Shown here: in pieces, positions 17,913-25,140 of the stretch
How positions within the stretch are numbered: position 1 is the stretch's first letter
Layout: every line of letters begins with the position of its first letter
Assembly: GCF_001078055.1 (NCBI RefSeq)
Contig: NZ_CP010777.1
Coordinates: forward strand, 890,408 to 954,407
Direction of reading: 5' to 3'
Source: Rufibacter radiotolerans
GTDB lineage: Bacteria; Bacteroidota; Bacteroidia; Cytophagales; Hymenobacteraceae
Length of the DNA: 64,000 bases
Position numbers and translations under genes: made by a program
The notes under the pieces: model-generated
Database searches by the model: none
Seen by the model: the letters and a program-made list of their open reading frames with translations, nothing else
What the model was told of the DNA's origin: nothing

Positions 17913-20900
17913 TTACTTAATAATAGTGACGTTTCCGGTAAGGGGACTCTCTTTGTCATCCAGGCGGATGAGGTAATAGTAGGTAGCGGCCGGAAGCGGC
18001 TGCCCGTTCAGGCGGCCATCCCATGGCTTATCATATCCTCTGGATTCAAATACCTTGTTCCCCCAGCGGTTGAAAATCTCCACCTGGCTGTTAGGGTAGT
18101 TGTTGAGCCCAGGAAGGTCCCACGCATCATTGATACGGTCGCCGTTAGGCGTAAAGCCGTTGGGCACCTCCACCGGAGGCAGCACGGTAATAGTCACCTG
18201 GTCTGAAGAAGTACAGCCGTCTGGCGTAGTCACGGTAACGGTGTAGGTGGTAGTGACAGTGGGTTTGGCCACTGGGTTGGCGATCTTGTCATCACTCAGG
18301 CCCAGGCTTGGTGACCAAGCGTAAGAGATGCCACCTTTGGCTTCCAGTTCCACAAAACGTCTGGTGATAATGGTCACATCTGGGCCGGCGTTGGCCGTTG
18401 GGGCCGGAATGTTGGCTTTTACCGCCACCATCTCGCTGGCGCAGTTCTGCACCACAGACCGCACGTAATACGTAGTGGTTTCCTTGAGCACCGGTGTGGT
18501 AAACTGCTGGCCAGAGCCTAATAATTTTCCGCCCATGGGCTTGTCAAACCATTCAATTACCGTGGGAACTGTGCCGTTCGGGATCGCCTGCAGGGTAGCG
18601 CTGAAGCCGGCGCAGATGAAGGCCTCCTTCACGGTAGGTGGTTGCGGTACTGTTACGGTTACCTGTACCACGTTGCTTTCGGCAATGGCGCACCCTCCAG
18701 AAAGCACTTTTCTCCGGAACCAGGTGGTGCGCGTAAGCGGACCCGGCGCGTAATGCTGCTCAGTGGTATTGCCAAAGGCCGTCCCAAACCCTGAAGCGGG
18801 CCCGGAGGTGCTGCTTTCCCACACATAGGTGAAGGAGCCATTTCCACCTTCAGGTGTGGTGCCGGTCAGGCGGGCAGGGGCCGTATTCAGGCAGACCGTC
18901 TGGTTGGTAGAGATGCTGTTCTGCGTGATGGCCGTAAATACCGTCACCTTGATCACGTTAGACTCCAGGGTAATGGTACCAGAGCTCACTTTCCTCCTGA
19001 ACCAGGTGGTTTGGGTAAGTGGACCAGACATATAGTCTCTGGTAGCAGGGTTGCCGCTGGCAGTTACAAAATCAGAGGTAGCGCCGGTGGTACTCATTTC
19101 CCAGACATAATGGAAGGTGCCGTCTCCGCCTACCGGCTCTGAACCCACCAATAATTTAGGGGCGTTACCGGTGCAGATGCTCTGGTCTTCGGTGATAGTG
19201 TTCTGCGAAAGCCCTGCGTTCACAGTCACCTTCACCTCATTGCTGAGAACATCACACCCGCCGGAGGTTACCTTGCGCCGGAACCAAGTGGTTTGACTAA
19301 TGGCGCCTGAGGCGAAGGTTTTACCCGTAGCCCCGGAAATGGTGCTATACGAAACCCCATCCAGGCTGCTTTCCCACTGGTACTGGTAGTTTCCAGCTCC
19401 GCCGGTAGGCGTGGTGCCCGTAAAGGCGGCCGGCTTGTTATTGATGAAGATGACCTGGTTGTCCTGGATGAAGTTGTTGATGATAGAGGAGCTTACCGTC
19501 ACCTTCACGGCCGCACTGGTCTGCGCCAAACAGGTGCCTGATTTTACTACCCTTCTATACCAGGTGGTTTGGTATAGGATGCCCGGGGTGTAGTCCTGCT
19601 CCTGATTGGCTCCGGCCGCTGCGTAGTAGGCAATGCCATCGGTGCTACTCTGCCACTGGTAGGTATAAGAGTTGGTGCCGCCGGTAGGTAACGCACCCGT
19701 AATGGTTCCGGCATTGGTGCCAGCGCAGATTTCCTGCACGCCAGACAAAACGTTATTGGCAACGGGAGGCTGTACCGTCACCTGTACCGCGGTACGCGGA
19801 CCGGCGCAACCTCCGGCTACGGCCTGTACATAGAAAGTAGTGGTCTGGGTAAGGGCCGGTGTGGTAAAAGCAGGTCCAGAGAATAAGGCAGTTCCGCCGG
19901 AAGGGGCCGCAAACCAGGCATAAGATAGGTCATTAGCCGGATTTTTTACTTCCAGTATGGCTTTTTCTGAATGGCACACCGTAGCGGCAATACCTTCTGG
20001 CGCCGATGGAAGCGCTGTCACGGTTACTTTTACTTCGGCTCTTCCTGGAGACACGCAACCATTGGTGGTCACCGCCTGGGCGTAATAGGAAACGTTATTC
20101 TGCAGGGTGGCCGTGGTAAAGGTATTGCCTTCCGCTAACAGGTTGCCGCCGGTGGGGGCGTCAAACCACTGCACTTTGTACGTGGTAGAAGACGCGGTGG
20201 CCGTTAAGGTAGCCGTGCCTCCCTGGCAGATGGCTACGCTTCTGGCAATAGGCGGCGATGGCAAAGGAAGAACGGTGATCTTCACCGCTGAGCTGGTCAA
20301 CTGGCAATCACCGGAGTACGTGACCCTGCGGAACCAGGTAGTTGCCGGCAGAATGCCCGGGGCATATGTGGCATTTTCAAAAGCACCTGATGCGGTGGTA
20401 AAGCCCGCCGTGGCGCTGGTGATACTTTTCTCCCACTTATAGGTATAGGTGCCGTTTCCGCCGGTGGCGGCGGGGGCGTTAATAACCGGGGCCGTTGACT
20501 CATCGCACACCAATATGTCAGCGGGCATGGTCACCGGTTTAAGGGCCGGCGTCATTTCCATTTTTACCGGGGCGGTAAAGTCCACGCAAGCGCCCATGGT
20601 CACCTTGCGGCGGAACCAGGTAGTCTGCGTAAGGGCCGCTGGGGCGTAGTTCTGGTTGGTGTTGGTGCCTACCGCAGCGCTGAATCTGTTGCCGTCCAGG
20701 CTGCTTTCCCAGGAGTATTGAGGCACGCCGTTTCCGCCGGTAGGGCGATAGCCGGTAATTACTGCCGGTACAGATCCTTCGCACACCACCTGGGCTTCTG
20801 AGGTGAAGTTGTTGGCGATAGGTGGCTGTACAGTCACGGTTACCTCCGTCCGGATCTTAGCGCAGTTGCCCGGGGCTTTGCTTTGCACAAAATAGGTAGC

Positions 20901-23090
20901 GTTCACAAAAAGGGCAGGCGTCACAAAGGTATCTCCGGTAAAGACAGGGGAGCCGCCGGTAGCGCTGGTGAACCACTCATAAGGTCCGCCCGGGGCGGTA
21001 GCAGTTAAGGTGGCAGAAGACCCGCTGCAAATAGTGACATTGGCCACGGTAGGCGGGAAAGAGATAGCGTACACAGAAACCAACACCGCAGGCGAGGTTT
21101 GGGTACAGCCGTCAATGGTCACCTTACGGCGGAACCAGGTGTTGGCGGTGATAGGGCCGGTCTGATAGGAGGAAACGTTGGATGAACCGGTAACCAGGCT
21201 AAAGCCCTGGGTGTCGCTGGTCGTGCTGGCCTCCCAGGCATATACCGGCTGCCCACCGTTTCCGCCGCCTGGCAAAGAGCCAGAGATAGTGGTGGTGGTA
21301 CCGTAGCAAATATTGTCTGCCGGGCCCTGCACGGTATTGTTGCTGATGCCGGGCACTACAGAAATCTTAACGGGTTCAGATACGCTGGTACAGCTACCAG
21401 AAGTGACTACCCGTCTAAACCAGGTGCTTTGGGTAAGGGTACCCGGGGCGTAATCAGCGGCAGTGCTGGTGCCGGGGGCTTTGGTGAACACTGTACCGTT
21501 GGTGCTGCTTTCCCATTGGTAGGCATAGGTGCCAGAACCACCAGACAGGGCTTCCCCGGTCAGGGAGGCAGCTGCCTCTCCTAGGCAGAAGGTTTGGTCC
21601 GTGCTGATGCTGTTCCCGGTCAGGGTAGGCTGCACTGTCACCTTCACCGCGTTGCGGCTTGCAGAAAAACAGCCTTCCGGAGAAAGGGTAGCGGTATAAT
21701 AGGTAGTGGTAGCGTTGAGGGCCGGCGTAATAAATGTAGGGCCGGTGGCCAGGAAGTCTTTTTCGTCTCCGGTGGCAGTAGCATACCAATAAACGGTGCC
21801 GCCGGTGGCACTTGCTTTCAAGGTGGCCGGGCTGCCGAAGCAGGTAGTCATATCAGCCGCCGTTGGTGCGCTTGGCAAGGGCGTGACCGTTACCTGTACC
21901 GGGGTTCGCGTTTGGCTGGTGCAGCCGCCGCTCCTGGCAGACTCTACATAATAAGTAGTGGTGGTTGTTAAGACGGGGGTAGTAAAAGTGGCGCCCGTAG
22001 CCAGTGGTGTGGTGGCGCCAGCCGAAGCAAACCAGTTAAAGACAGACCCTTCGCCAGTGGCTTTTAAGGTGGCGGTAGTGCCGGCGCAGATAGCGGCGCC
22101 TGCTGCAGCGGGGGCAGAAGGGGCGTCACGGACCACTATGGATTGGTTGGTGGAGTCTCCGGTACAGGTAGTGCTTGTGCCAGATGGGGTAACTGCTAAC
22201 TGGATGGTGTACGTACCCTTGTTCTGGAAGAGGATGGAAGGCTTAGCTGAAGAAGCATTGGTGCCATTGGTAAAGGCCCAGCCGGTGCTGGGTGAAATAG
22301 TCCATAAACGCTTATAGCCACTGGTGTTTCCGCCTACGTTGTTGCCGTTGTATCCGCTCTTGGTGTCATCATTCAGGGTAATGGTCTGGTTAGGGCAAAG
22401 CGTGTTGCCCGGCTGAATGCTGAAAGAGGCAATGGGTTTAGAGGAAATCACAATCCCGCTTACCTCTGCCTGCTTGGAGATACAGCCGTAAGCAATGGCA
22501 AACATGGTAAAGCCCTTGGGCTTCCCTTCAGAAGACTTGGTAAAGTTATGGACAATGGTAGACGGGAGGTTGCTCTGCGTGTAATGGAGCGTATCTGTGC
22601 CGTCATCAAACCAGATGGCGTATTTGGTGGTAGCGGCGTTCCCTTCGGTGCCCAAAATCCCAAACTTGAAGGCCGCAGGGGCGCAGTCTGAGGTGTTATT
22701 GGGGCTCTGGATACCAATACCTGGGGTGCTGCCATTAAATACCGGGTAGGTGCTACTGGCGGTACAACCGTTCTGGCTGACAACAGTGTACTTTAAGTTG
22801 AAACTGCCTTGGGTCTTATAAGTGTGCGAAGCCGTAGTGAATGAGGCAGGATAGGTGTTGGAGGTGCCGTCTCCCCATTCAATAATAGCTTCTTTGTTCT
22901 TAGAGGAAGTGGTAGAGGCGTTCACTACTTCCAGATTGTACTCCACCGAACCACCTACCGAACTACATCTGGTGAAGTTTTCTTCGTTAGCATCAGATAA
23001 AGAGGCGTCCGGCTTATCCGGGCAGGTTTGGGCGAAAGTGTAAAGACTCCAGAAAAACAGGAGGGTGAAAAAAGAGAAGAACTTTTTCAT
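17913..23090 (-). CDS. Giant T9SS-secreted repeat protein, gliding-motility-type C-terminal domain
   Basis: A 1725-residue secreted protein. Signal peptide (MKKFFSFFTLLFFWSLYTFA), then about 300 residues with PKD-like folds, then a mosaic of two Ig-like repeat types of roughly 75-95 residues. Type A ends TTTYYV-x-...GC-x-VTV (six copies); type B contains P-x-GGNG...W(E/Q)SS and TTWFRRKV-x-SG-C (eight copies). By eye the order is A A B B A B B A A B B B B A. A further PKD/Ig-like domain (AGPDVTIITRRFVELEAKGG) is followed by VPNGFTPNGDRINDAWD and FNRWGNKVF, the signature of the CHU_C/type B sorting domain. It is probably a cell-surface adhesin or matrix protein. Confidence 0.92.
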   Translation of the reverse strand: MKKFFSFFTLLFFWSLYTFAQTCPDKPDASLSDANEENFTRCSSVGGSVEYNLEVVNASTTSSKNKEAIIEWGDGTSNTYPASFTTASHTYKTQGSFNLKYTVVSQNGCTASSTYPVFNGSTPGIGIQSPNNTSDCAPAAFKFGILGTEGNAATTKYAIWFDDGTDTLHYTQSNLPSTIVHNFTKSSEGKPKGFTMFAIAYGCISKQAEVSGIVISSKPIASFSIQPGNTLCPNQTITLNDDTKSGYNGNNVGGNTSGYKRLWTISPSTGWAFTNGTNASSAKPSILFQNKGTYTIQLAVTPSGTSTTCTGDSTNQSIVVRDAPSAPAAAGAAICAGTTATLKATGEGSVFNWFASAGATTPLATGATFTTPVLTTTTTYYVESARSGGCTSQTRTPVQVTVTPLPSAPTAADMTTCFGSPATLKASATGGTVYWYATATGDEKDFLATGPTFITPALNATTTYYTATLSPEGCFSASRNAVKVTVQPTLTGNSISTDQTFCLGEAAASLTGEALSGGSGTYAYQWESSTNGTVFTKAPGTSTAADYAPGTLTQSTWFRRVVTSGSCTSVSEPVKISVVPGISNNTVQGPADNICYGTTTTISGSLPGGGNGGQPVYAWEASTTSDTQGFSLVTGSSNVSSYQTGPITANTWFRRKVTIDGCTQTSPAVLVSVYAISFPPTVANVTICSGSSATLTATAPGGPYEWFTSATGGSPVFTGDTFVTPALFVNATYFVQSKAPGNCAKIRTEVTVTVQPPIANNFTSEAQVVCEGSVPAVITGYRPTGGNGVPQYSWESSLDGNRFSAAVGTNTNQNYAPAALTQTTWFRRKVTMGACVDFTAPVKMEMTPALKPVTMPADILVCDESTAPVINAPAATGGNGTYTYKWEKSITSATAGFTTASGAFENATYAPGILPATTWFRRVTYSGDCQLTSSAVKITVLPLPSPPIARSVAICQGGTATLTATASSTTYKVQWFDAPTGGNLLAEGNTFTTATLQNNVSYYAQAVTTNGCVSPGRAEVKVTVTALPSAPEGIAATVCHSEKAILEVKNPANDLSYAWFAAPSGGTALFSGPAFTTPALTQTTTFYVQAVAGGCAGPRTAVQVTVQPPVANNVLSGVQEICAGTNAGTITGALPTGGTNSYTYQWQSSTDGIAYYAAAGANQEQDYTPGILYQTTWYRRVVKSGTCLAQTSAAVKVTVSSSIINNFIQDNQVIFINNKPAAFTGTTPTGGAGNYQYQWESSLDGVSYSTISGATGKTFASGAISQTTWFRRKVTSGGCDVLSNEVKVTVNAGLSQNTITEDQSICTGNAPKLLVGSEPVGGDGTFHYVWEMSTTGATSDFVTASGNPATRDYMSGPLTQTTWFRRKVSSGTITLESNVIKVTVFTAITQNSISTNQTVCLNTAPARLTGTTPEGGNGSFTYVWESSTSGPASGFGTAFGNTTEQHYAPGPLTRTTWFRRKVLSGGCAIAESNVVQVTVTVPQPPTVKEAFICAGFSATLQAIPNGTVPTVIEWFDKPMGGKLLGSGQQFTTPVLKETTTYYVRSVVQNCASEMVAVKANIPAPTANAGPDVTIITRRFVELEAKGGISYAWSPSLGLSDDKIANPVAKPTVTTTYTVTVTTPDGCTSSDQVTITVLPPVEVPNGFTPNGDRINDAWDLPGLNNYPNSQVEIFNRWGNKVFESRGYDKPWDGRLNGQPLPAATYYYLIRLDDKESPLTGNVTIIK

Positions 23091-23753
23091 AGGCGCTAGT
23101 GTGCCGGCAGGTAAAATAGGAATTTACACGAATCAATAAGGAATAGGGAGGATGCTTGAGCTGTTATAGCAGAAAAAGATCTGCCACAGAAGCAAAAGGC
23201 AATAGTAAGCTAAACCGCTAGGGGTGAGGTTTGTCCAATCACAGGGGAAGTACAAAATACGTCTGCTAAGGAGCAGTCAGAAAGTGCTTTTATGTGATGG
23301 TGAGCCGGAGAGGCAAATGTATATATTCTAGATTCTTCCTGAAAGTAATTTTTTTCCATATATTTATTTAGAGTGGATCTGGTAATTGATTTATATCTTT
23401 ATAACCTCTGTTAGAGGCTCTGATTTAGAAGTATAAATATTTATGTTTCAAGCGCGTTTCGTGGTCAGTAACAACGTGAATCGTAACTTAAGTTCAATAA
23501 TTTCGTAAAAATTATGTTTTTAAATTTTATACATTTTTTATAACTATTCTTATTTTTAATATGAGTGGTGTCTTAATTAAAAGAGATAGGAGGCGCAGAA
23601 CTGTTAATGTTTGCTTTTTTCTTACCCCTTTAGAGGGAAAATCGTAAAATAAAGTACAACTAAGGAGATGAAAAGAAGCGGTAGCTTGGGCAGAAAAGGA
23701 CTCTATTGATTATTCAACGGGTAAAAAGAGTAGTTGGCAGTTAAATTTGGGGT
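23091..23753. other. AT-rich non-coding region upstream of the giant protein
   Basis: About 660 bases, strongly AT-rich between 23330 and 23600, upstream of the 1725-residue gene. It likely contains that gene's promoter. No open frame or repeat is convincing before the first structured-RNA unit. Confidence 0.5.
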
Positions 23754-23805
23754 GTTCACCTAAAAGGTAGAGTGGAAAAGAAATTACCTATTACCTTTGA
23801 CAAAG

Positions 23806-23996
23806 TAAAAACAGCAGAAAATGTCTGCTGAGAAAGATATTGAAAACATAAAGGAGCGGCGAGGCACTTCTGCTTGCAGGAGCGTCAAAGGTTCTGATGC
23901 TTATTGGGGGATATGCTACAGACACTAATGACATTTTGCCTCGCTTGCCCCTCCTTTTTCAGCCTCTTTTCCTGCCCAGGGAAAGAGGCTTTTTTG
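23806..23996 (+). ncRNA. Structured small RNA, copy 1 of a tandem pair
   Basis: Predicted about 190-nt RNA. Promoter: TACCTTTG at 23792-23799 (TAnnTTTG -7 element), with GTTCACCTAAAA 38 bases upstream, at the same spacing as in copy 2. Stems: CAGCAGA/TCTGCTG near the 5' end; GGAG/CTCC and GCGAGGCA (23859-23866) with TGCCTCGC (23937-23944); CTTCTG-CTTG-CAGGAG; AGCGTC/GACACT; and a conserved GATGCTTATTGGGGGATATG segment. It ends with a terminator hairpin (23961-23990) and TTTTTT. No conserved open frame is shared by the two copies. Could be a 6S-like RNA or another known class; no family was recognised. Confidence 0.75.
23961..23996 (+). terminator. Terminator of structured RNA copy 1
   Basis: AGCCTCTTTTCCTG pairs with CAGGGAAAGAGGCT and is followed by six T. 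Confidence 0.8.
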
Positions 23997-24157
23997 TGTC
24001 TGTATAGGAAGGCATGGGCCAGGCGTGGCCAGTTTGGTTTGTGGAGTTGGATACGCCAATTTGGTTCATCCGGAAAAACGGCCTATTGGTCGAGCGATTT
24101 GGGCGGTTTACCTAAAAATTCTTTTAGTCTTGCAGGAAGCTGTTACCTTTGACACAG

Positions 24158-24340
24158 TTAAAACAACAAAGAAAGTTTGCTGCTAAAGATATAAAGGAGC
24201 GGTGGGGCACTTCTGCTTGCAGAAGCGTTACAAGTTTTGATGCTTATTGGGGGATATGCTACAAACGCTTTTAACATTGCCTCGCTTGCCCTTCTTTTCA
24301 ACCTCTTTTTCCTGACCAGGAAGAAGAGGTTTTCTTTTTT
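24158..24340 (+). ncRNA. Structured small RNA, copy 2 of a tandem pair
   Basis: Second copy, 352 bases after the first, with its own TACCTTTG (24144-24151) and GTTTACCTAAAA upstream. Compared with copy 1, stems are kept by paired changes: CAACAAA/TTTGCTG against CAGCAGA/TCTGCTG; GTGGGGCA (24202-24209)/TGCCTCGC (24278-24285) against GCGAGGCA; CTTCTG-CTTG-CAGAAG; AGCGTT/AACGCT against AGCGTC/GACACT. The block GATGCTTATTGGGGGATATG is identical in both. Ends with a hairpin and TTTTCTTTTTT. The compensatory changes argue strongly for a functional RNA. Confidence 0.75.
24300..24340 (+). terminator. Terminator of structured RNA copy 2
   Basis: AACCTCTTTTTCCTG pairs with CAGGAAGAAGAGGTT, followed by a T-rich tract. 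Confidence 0.8.
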
Positions 24341-24472
24341 AGGGCAGCCCGGCCCCTAACGGTTTGGTTCTATTAGCACCTCCTTTTGAAAATTCTTTCC
24401 TTGTCACTGGCCCTCTTCCTACAGGAAAGCCACCGGAGAGCGTGTAAGGGCAAATTTGCCATTCATTTTGCG

Positions 24473-24480
24473 TACCTTTG
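24473..24480 (+). promoter_or_regulatory. Likely -7 element for the zinc-ribbon protein gene
   Basis: TACCTTTG fits the Bacteroidota TAnnTTTG -7 consensus, 28 bases before the ATG at 24508. A -33 TTG at the ideal distance is not clear. Confidence 0.5.
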
Positions 24481-24507: not shown

Positions 24508-25140
24508 ATGAACCAGCATATGACCGAAAATGAGCGCGAAGTAATCAAGCTCATTAATTTCTTCAAGAAAAAGGGAGAGCGGCTGGCCGAGGAAGGTTCC
24601 CTGACCCAGGAGCACCAGGACCTGAATGCGGCCTGTGAACGCCTGACCGAGAAAATCTACAACCACGCCGATTTCCGGCAACAGGTGCTGGAAAAGCACG
24701 AGACCCTGAAAGGCATCATTGAAGACAGCGCCCAGTGCCCTAGCTGTGGCAAGGTAGATAAGCTTAAGAAAGTAGGCGTGGCCACCAATGAGCTGGGCTG
24801 GAAATCTAACCGCTATAAATGCCGTCGCTGTAATATTGAGTTCACCTGGAACCGACCCAACAACCCCTGGGACATGATCCCGTTCCTGGAGATTTGCCTG
24901 CAGGAACTGGACACCAACCTCGGCTCTGCCGAAATGGAAGGAGACTTGAGGGAACGCGCCCAGGGCGCCCGCGACCACATGTCCGTGAGCCTGGAGCAAT
25001 TACGGGCCGCCATCGCTTCTGCCGACGAGGAGAAGGCGCGTATGGAGGAGCAGGACCGTGAGATGTCCCGCATGCTGCATGAGTTCAAGAAATATCTGCT
25101 AATAGAGAAAATCAAACTGGAGCCCTTCAGCGAAAACTAA
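24508..25140 (+). CDS. Coiled-coil protein with a central zinc ribbon
   Basis: A 210-residue soluble protein of unknown function. Residues about 1-75 and 130-200 are charged helices likely to form coiled coils; between them is a zinc ribbon with CPSCGK (about residues 77-82) and CRRCNIEF (about 109-116). It begins 28 bases after a good -7 promoter element. No partner gene is adjacent; the structured-RNA pair lies directly upstream in the same orientation. The ribbon may bind nucleic acid or simply stabilise the fold. Confidence 0.75.
   Translation: MNQHMTENEREVIKLINFFKKKGERLAEEGSLTQEHQDLNAACERLTEKIYNHADFRQQVLEKHETLKGIIEDSAQCPSCGKVDKLKKVGVATNELGWKSNRYKCRRCNIEFTWNRPNNPWDMIPFLEICLQELDTNLGSAEMEGDLRERAQGARDHMSVSLEQLRAAIASADEEKARMEEQDREMSRMLHEFKKYLLIEKIKLEPFSEN

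Follow-up and report, generated by a model that had tools for sequence, protein, structure and literature searches.

Two similar units lie in tandem in the genome of Rufibacter radiotolerans, and the questions raised by this locus are what they encode and how their products might act. The genome (G000) is a single contig of 4.82 Mb, and the window, the whole stretch of DNA analysed, comprises 64 kb of it. Below, Gnnn denotes genomes of the genus sample and Lnnn denotes loci.

Two predicted tandem RNA genes

The units occupy 23711-23995 and 24063-24340, with starts 352 bases apart, and show 79.5% identity over 210 aligned columns. On one side they are flanked by a large gene on the minus strand (17913-23090), whose product is an Ig_7/CHU_C type IX secretion protein, and on the other by a gene at 24508-25140, which encodes 210 aa and has zinc-ribbon matches that are all sub-threshold. 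A shared motif is found as GTTCACCTAAAA at 23754 and as GTTTACCTAAAA at 24106, and TACCTTTG follows 38 bases downstream of each. As read from the sequence, each unit consists of a Bacteroidota -7 box, for which the available part of PMC9723704 gives the consensus TAnnTTTG, a structured RNA of about 185-190 nt, and an intrinsic terminator. The first-pass annotation had described this spacing and had proposed that each of the tandem units is a non-coding RNA gene equipped with its own promoter and terminator, and the sequence bears out both points. The features are listed below, where R1 is a covariance model built from 18 sequences of the unit and its homologues.

23713..23764, + strand: operator of unit 1, direct repeats starting at 23713, 23734 and 23755 (21-bp period)
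23792..23799, + strand: -7 box TACCTTTG of unit 1, Bacteroidota type, by eye without a TTG at -33
23805..23995, + strand: predicted RNA 1, ~190 nt, putative start, end at the T-run of the terminator
23812..23830, + strand: P1, 5' hairpin of RNA 1
23844..23957, + strand: three-way-junction core of RNA 1, R1 match of 122.4 bits (the sequence itself is in the model)
23902..23917, + strand: invariant apical loop TATTGGGGGATATGCT of RNA 1, proposed pairing site
23961..23995, + strand: intrinsic terminator of RNA 1
24065..24116, + strand: operator of unit 2, repeats starting at 24065, 24086 and 24107 (21-bp period)
24144..24151, + strand: -7 box TACCTTTG of unit 2
24157..24340, + strand: predicted RNA 2, ~184 nt, putative start
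24187..24298, + strand: three-way-junction core of RNA 2, R1 match of 110.9 bits (the sequence itself is in the model)
24245..24260, + strand: invariant apical loop of RNA 2
24300..24339, + strand: intrinsic terminator of RNA 2

A cis-acting leader of the gene at 24508-25140 was considered and rejected, because terminators close both RNAs, the gene has its own TACCTTTG near 24473, and its sister-genus homologues have no such RNA upstream.

Structure and covariation

Both units fold better than shuffled sequences (z of -5.65 for unit 1 and -3.71 for unit 2; 0/200 shuffles as good). The consensus of the 18 sequences is a three-way junction, in which a closing helix meets a hairpin of 7 bp and a long hairpin capped by an apical loop. 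Two-sided changes are found in 14 of the 37 core pairs, compared to 5.1 in shuffles (0/500 as high), and the signal is destroyed when the partners in the alignment are slid against each other. One of the five covariation measures, the number of further pair types, shows no excess (29 versus 28.0 in shuffles, 163/500). The share of cells pairing in the consensus is 94.7%, which is biased upward because the structure was derived from the same sequences; the two-sided counts are stronger evidence than this percentage. As judged from the alignment, the fold is supported by covariation.

Covariation between the two copies had previously been regarded as strong evidence for the RNAs. In the 37 core pairs, 30 are unchanged between unit 1 and unit 2, 2 changed on both sides, 5 changed on one side and 0 are broken. 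The claim of covariation holds strongly in the 18-sequence alignment, but the two copies alone are not the strong evidence. Of the individual helices named earlier, GCGAGGCA/GTGGGGCA is compatible with pairing, but only via one-sided, G-U changes, and CAACAAA/TTTGCTG in unit 2 keeps its pairing except for one A-C mismatch (by eye). AGCGTC/GACACT is not a conserved helix, and the genus-wide consensus pairs GUCA with UGAC.

The apical loop UAUUGGGGGAUAUGCU (TATTGGGGGATATGCT in the RNA) is identical in 18/18 sequences, although the stems drift. Because the loop rows were gathered with the shorter ATTGGGGGATATGCT, any copy whose loop had changed would escape that step; R1 added no further copies. 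In the apical hairpin, 18/18 copies contain an ATG that begins a frame (MLQ...) of at least 12 codons, from which a small peptide could be read. This is scarcely credible as the function of the units: residues 4-5 vary (T, M, I, N, R, K, G; L, P, T, F), the lengths differ, indels of 1-2 nt switch the frame after about codon 7-8, and the changes track base pairing. A conserved small protein frame, the finding on which the non-coding reading was to be judged, was looked for in the homologues and none was found, so that this reading stands. Two features of a trans-acting antisense sRNA, an own promoter and terminator (by sequence only) and the lack of a conserved protein frame, are found here.

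Distribution of the RNA

By blastn, each of the 15 other genomes sampled from the genus contains the unit. R1 matches 16/16 genomes of the genus (Rufibacter, with Sabulibacter ruber) at the same genomic place, and two copies are found only in the genome of the window and in G012 among 204 genomes of the family. Across the six genera to which these 204 genomes belong, matches are confined to one genus, with 0 in the 188 other genomes; strict filters apply at that search size, and very diverged relatives may escape. The orthologous locus in sister genera, located via the downstream gene in 9 of 26 genomes, was searched unfiltered and gave no R1 match beyond chance at 9/9 loci (best E 0.28).

A scan of 84,980 species genomes for the exact loop returned 34 stretches. 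Eleven of these belong to Rufibacter or Sabulibacter and are strong R1 matches; the other 23 reach an R1 match of E 0.23 at best and look like chance, and a stretch in Pontibacter reads as coding by eye. No match was found in 72,556 plasmid records, and the viral scan gave the exact loop in 2 contigs with no R1 match at E up to 5. The downstream gene adjoins the RNA in 16/16 genomes and the large upstream gene does so in 15/16 (not seen in L008). This fixed place throughout the genus speaks against a mobile element or a type III antitoxin array. The tandem copy of G012 (L017:1142-1400) has very different stems, the same loop and three 21-bp repeats. In a tree of the units, 13/15 inner branches were unsupported, and the duplication could not be dated.

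Conserved homologues, for which a covariance model scan of related genomes had been advised, are found throughout the genus. The suggestion of a Bacteroidota-specific family was too broad, as the range is one genus and not the phylum. On this evidence from sequence, the RNA is a new, genus-specific non-coding family, of a kind (trans-acting bacterial sRNA) that is already known.

Relation to known RNA classes

Rfam 15 gives 0 matches at gathering score in the 64-kb window. When region 23600-24450 was searched to E 10, only matches far below gathering scores appeared, with no 6S among them and PyrR scoring highest (23 bits, cut-off 54). The same was found for four homologous loci searched to E 0.5, where a ctRNA match (24.8 bits, cut-off 50) touches the RNA end in L017. 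The Rfam check advised earlier therefore returns no family, and the original statement that the class was not recognised stands.

The first-pass annotation had also considered a 6S-like RNA, and it can be asked whether the genus's own 6S RNA, too diverged for Rfam, is encoded here. The length of about 185-190 nt is similar to that of 6S and 6S-Flavo (RF00013, RF01685), neither model finds a 6S RNA in the genome of the window, and 6S is present in Bacteroides and Flavobacterium according to the available portions of PMC7366714 and PMC9723704. RF00013 gave 0 matches to E 10 in that genome, the one same-genus genome searched, while 8/14 control genomes gave a match, 4 of them above the cut-off. 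RF01685 gave 0 matches in 16 own-genus genomes; over all 29 genomes searched it produced 1 weak match (E 0.66), in another family, and none above the cut-off. The hallmark of 6S is a long rod with a large central bubble, whereas the consensus here is a three-way junction and not a bulged rod. Moreover, the RNA is genus-restricted: R1 is at chance level at 9/9 sister-genus loci and has no match in the rest of the family. The promoter element is also common to non-housekeeping genes. A 6S identity is consequently very improbable, and the 6S-like suggestion is not upheld. Within the literature library searched, no work joins Rufibacter with small RNA and none joins 6S RNA, Bacteroidetes and Cytophagales; papers joining Hymenobacter with non-coding RNA and transcriptome contained nothing on such an RNA, judged by title and abstract opening.

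A triple-repeat operator

All 18 RNA promoters carry three direct repeats, typically TTNRNC, with a 21-bp period and at a fixed distance from the -7 box, the last repeat starting 37 nt upstream of it. The promoter rows were cut at a fixed distance from the -7 box, which was placed by eye in the diverged G012 copy; MAFFT aligned them with 0 gaps in 91 columns, and TT is invariant at columns 4-5 and 25-26. Pairs of TTNRNC occur 24 times at distance 21 and 8 times at distance 42, compared to a shuffle mean of 0.07 (maximum 2 in 1000) at distance 21, the counts not being independent because the 18 promoters are homologous. The triple repeat and the complementary sites described below are additions to the first-pass annotation.

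The operator profile R2 also found the promoters of orthologous secreted small proteins in three genomes (E 1.6e-4, 0.001 and 0.005). This protein has 29 matches, some weak, in 14/16 genomes of the genus and none in the genome of the window. Upstream of the 29 genes, a score based on the repeats only was significant against mononucleotide shuffles (p < 0.05) for 19 of them and fell short for the other 10. Fourteen of these 19 promoters were kept by eye, leaving out L143, L147, L151, L152 and L159. In the 14, TTTG (12 promoters) or TTTA (2 promoters) stands exactly at the expected -7 position, and since the box was not used in the repeats-only score, this is an independent test of the operator. 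Two of the omitted promoters, L151 and L152, were later matched in another register, with the box in place, by the wider profile R3. Secreted proteins of about 105-120 aa (LNExQ..., LTPxQQK) are seen at L127, L128, L129 and L133-L150, mostly behind the triple-repeat operator; two members of the family were tested against Pfam at cut-off, with no match.

R3, trained on 32 promoters, gives 74 matches at E up to 0.1 in the 16 genomes, that is, the 32 training promoters and 42 more, compared to 1.6 expected provided that the E-values hold. Twenty of these regions and three more were examined. Three genomes have the operator ahead of a large secreted protein (L184, E 0.001; L198, E 0.009; L196, E 0.05), and five look-alike promoters in five genomes (L183, L188, L193, L194, L195) have near-identical repeats and the TTTG box in place. 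In the genome of the window, operator-like sites lie upstream of a 73-aa protein (L191, G000:C1:3357061-3357149, E 0.005), a large secreted-looking protein (L185, G000:C1:800751-800811) and a CHASE3 histidine kinase (L190, G000:C1:1396221-1396295, E 0.0036). A similar CHASE3 histidine kinase in G014 has such a site as well (L131, G014:C2:317449-317517, E 0.0028). The operator match of a 168-aa gene in G012 reaches E 6.6e-7; this gene is called receiver-like from its N-terminus read by eye, and Pfam finds no domain in it.

Two further matches were noted. L126 (G011:C111:399493-399582) is a full-length operator match (R2, E 5.3e-5) upstream of a gene that by eye resembles phosphoribosylanthranilate isomerase. 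L130 (G014:C1:1612445-1612524), a weak operator-like hit of E 0.01, immediately precedes what by eye is a tRNA gene, because of which a relation to stable-RNA promoters was considered.

Most likely, a regulator would bind the repeats as an activator, as suggested by the position of the sites and the missing TTG at -33. LytTR sites, as described in the available text of PMC4847170, are direct repeats of 9-11 nt with spacers of 11-13 nt and share no common consensus. The 21-bp period in the 18 promoters agrees with this repeat and spacer geometry, which points to a LytTR-type protein as the candidate regulator. Three repeats, as found here, are unusual for such sites.

Sites complementary to the loop

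A search of the 16 genomes for AGCATATYCCCCAA with up to one mismatch gave 73 hits, of which 18 are the RNA genes themselves. Outside the RNA genes, exact AGCATATYCCCCAA occurs 6 times in five of the 16 genomes searched, compared to 0.74 expected, and AGTATATCCCCCAA, with one G-U, occurs 5 times compared to 0.19 expected, the latter word having been picked after seeing the hits. Expected numbers were computed under a third-order Markov model whose training set was 0.52 Mb of same-genus DNA. Some of the sites share ancestry (G013 with G006; G004, G014 and G008, which have theirs at one orthologous place), which leaves about 4 and about 3 independent occurrences. With up to one mismatch, the 55 non-self sites represent a modest excess over 36.7, and the reversed control gave 8 versus 15.2. 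All 55 sites, in 54 regions, were inspected; apart from the sites described below, most of the one-mismatch hits are inside ORFs and probably due to chance.

The candidate sites offer 14-20 contiguous pairs with the loop, G-U included. Six loci have the site at the stop codon of an ORF, its start lying anywhere from 2 nt inside the codon to 13 nt past it, with a hairpin and a U-run downstream:

G013 and G006: post-stop site, secreted lysine/alanine-rich protein
G011: post-stop site, signal peptidase I (Pfam Peptidase_S26)
G014, G004 and G008: post-stop site, protein ending GGRGF with the look of an outer-membrane receptor (family by eye)

The G001 site and a second G013 site (one mismatch) lie ahead of a terminator without a clear upstream ORF; the small or overlapping frames placed by a simple ORF caller over these two and over the G004 site are, by reading, taken as spurious. 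One G012 site (L291) is intergenic, and one of the five AGTATATCCCCCAA sites is inside an ORF (G001, L264). The C-run of the G013 and G001 sites sits in the loop of a 6-bp hairpin, an arrangement suggestive of a kissing contact. In G006 (L284:2566-2602) there are two copies of the site 23 nt apart in one 3'UTR. A complement-like site also precedes a gene starting MSKTVIGIFDSSSEAQRAV in G012 (L278/L291).

The leader of the receiver-like gene of G012 holds a site too: it reads AAGCATATTCCCCAAG and can pair with the loop along 14 nt, one of the pairs being G-U. Predicted pairing energies are -22.8 kcal/mol in G012 and -22.7 in G007, over 14 nt in both, and no operator was found in the G007 orthologue though its leader pairs. 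G001 has a degenerate version (-13.2), no better than the unrelated leaders of G013 (-13.2) and G004 (-13.3). Leader pairing is thus found in 2 of 15 orthologues and, besides degenerate G001, is absent in 12 others.

In the genome of the window, the search with up to one mismatch found only the RNA genes themselves. Wobble matches number 122 there and 48 in the reversed control, whose different composition makes this no fair test. Among the 100 of the 122 listed, which extend to 3.87 Mb of the genome, the nine best-looking by eye are chance-like (eight in ORFs, one intergenic). One wobble match, L342 (G000), lies on the opposite strand inside a gene similar to the MSKTVIGIFDSSSEAQRAV gene and is possibly a coincidence. 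On sequence grounds, no convincing target is found in this genome.

Proposed mode of action

The sequences hold a covarying structure, an operator, promoters shared with protein genes, and complementary sites. The explanation that we consider probable is an activator-controlled, trans-acting antisense RNA that acts via its G-rich loop. We infer that each unit is expressed and transcribed independently, as an RNA with the P1 hairpin, a three-way junction with the G5 apical loop, and an intrinsic terminator. The three repeats, spaced at 21 bp ahead of a -7 box that lacks a TTG at -33, would be bound by a regulator that is most likely an activator rather than a repressor and, from the geometry, a candidate LytTR-type protein; the same element precedes secreted small proteins and some signalling genes. 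The loop UAUUGGGGGAUAUGCU would pair in trans, in vivo, with C-rich sites (AGYATATYCCCCAA) by stop codons or in mRNA leaders, and pairing would alter mRNA stability or translation, or the sites would titrate the RNA.

The last alternative, a special form of the antisense reading, is that the sites are 3'-UTR sponges titrating the RNA and not regulated mRNAs. It is a possibility suggested by the position of the sites between stop codon and terminator, by the two copies 23 nt apart in G006, and by the C-run as a 6-bp hairpin loop in G013 and G001; the leader site of G012 and G007 and the intergenic site of G012 (L291) do not fit a 3'UTR. Rather unlikely is a different function, in which the invariant G5 hairpin serves as the binding site for a protein (RNA polymerase, an RRM protein or an enzyme) and the complementary sites are coincidental or unrelated. 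This would agree with a loop invariant in 18/18 while stems drift, with the lack of a good antisense target in the genome of the window, and with targets that are not conserved across the genus. Against it stand the excess of exact complements, their mostly post-stop, pre-terminator or leader positions, and the 14-20 nt of pairing. Candidate targets differ between species, and since the genome of the window has no good site, only in some species does trans-pairing have support, and protein binding competes with the antisense RNA as an explanation.

More tentatively, a genus-wide circuit of two tiers might exist. One regulator of the three-site 21-bp operator would drive the secreted and signalling genes together with the RNA, and the G5 loop would dock, by kissing or antisense contact, on C-rich post-stop, pre-terminator elements of rapidly changing mRNAs, as a regulatory or sponge class.

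Comparison with known systems

Most Bacteroidota are not known to have Hfq, and characterised trans-acting RNAs are few in this phylum. The surprising parts of the present system are the 21-bp triple-repeat regulon and the complementary sites after stop codons, which, if true, would be an unusual place for sRNA action. Because a promoter element, a candidate regulon, a covarying fold, an invariant loop and, for several species, candidate targets are at hand, the RNA is directly testable.

RNAIII (AgrA) and VR-RNA (VirR) are reportedly RNAs activated by LytTR proteins. There, too, the RNA gene lies downstream of direct repeats separated by about two helical turns; two repeats are found there and three here, and the likeness concerns promoter geometry. 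Within Bacteroidota, Rfp18 of Flavobacterium psychrophilum is likewise a structured, genus-conserved sRNA, and in the available part of PMC9723704 one of its stem-loops is predicted to pair with all predicted targets, including an intergenic site within an operon. Compared to Rfp18, the candidate sites here are mainly post-stop and pre-terminator and the promoter has a triple-repeat operator. GibS of Bacteroides thetaiotaomicron is likewise a trans-encoded, genus-conserved sRNA with an extended seed, and was called in 2020 the first trans-encoded Bacteroidetes RNA with identified targets, according to the available part of PMC7366714. As described in that part, the seed of GibS is single-stranded, lies at the 5' end and acts at translation starts, whereas the candidate seed of the Rufibacter RNA is the apical loop of a three-way junction.
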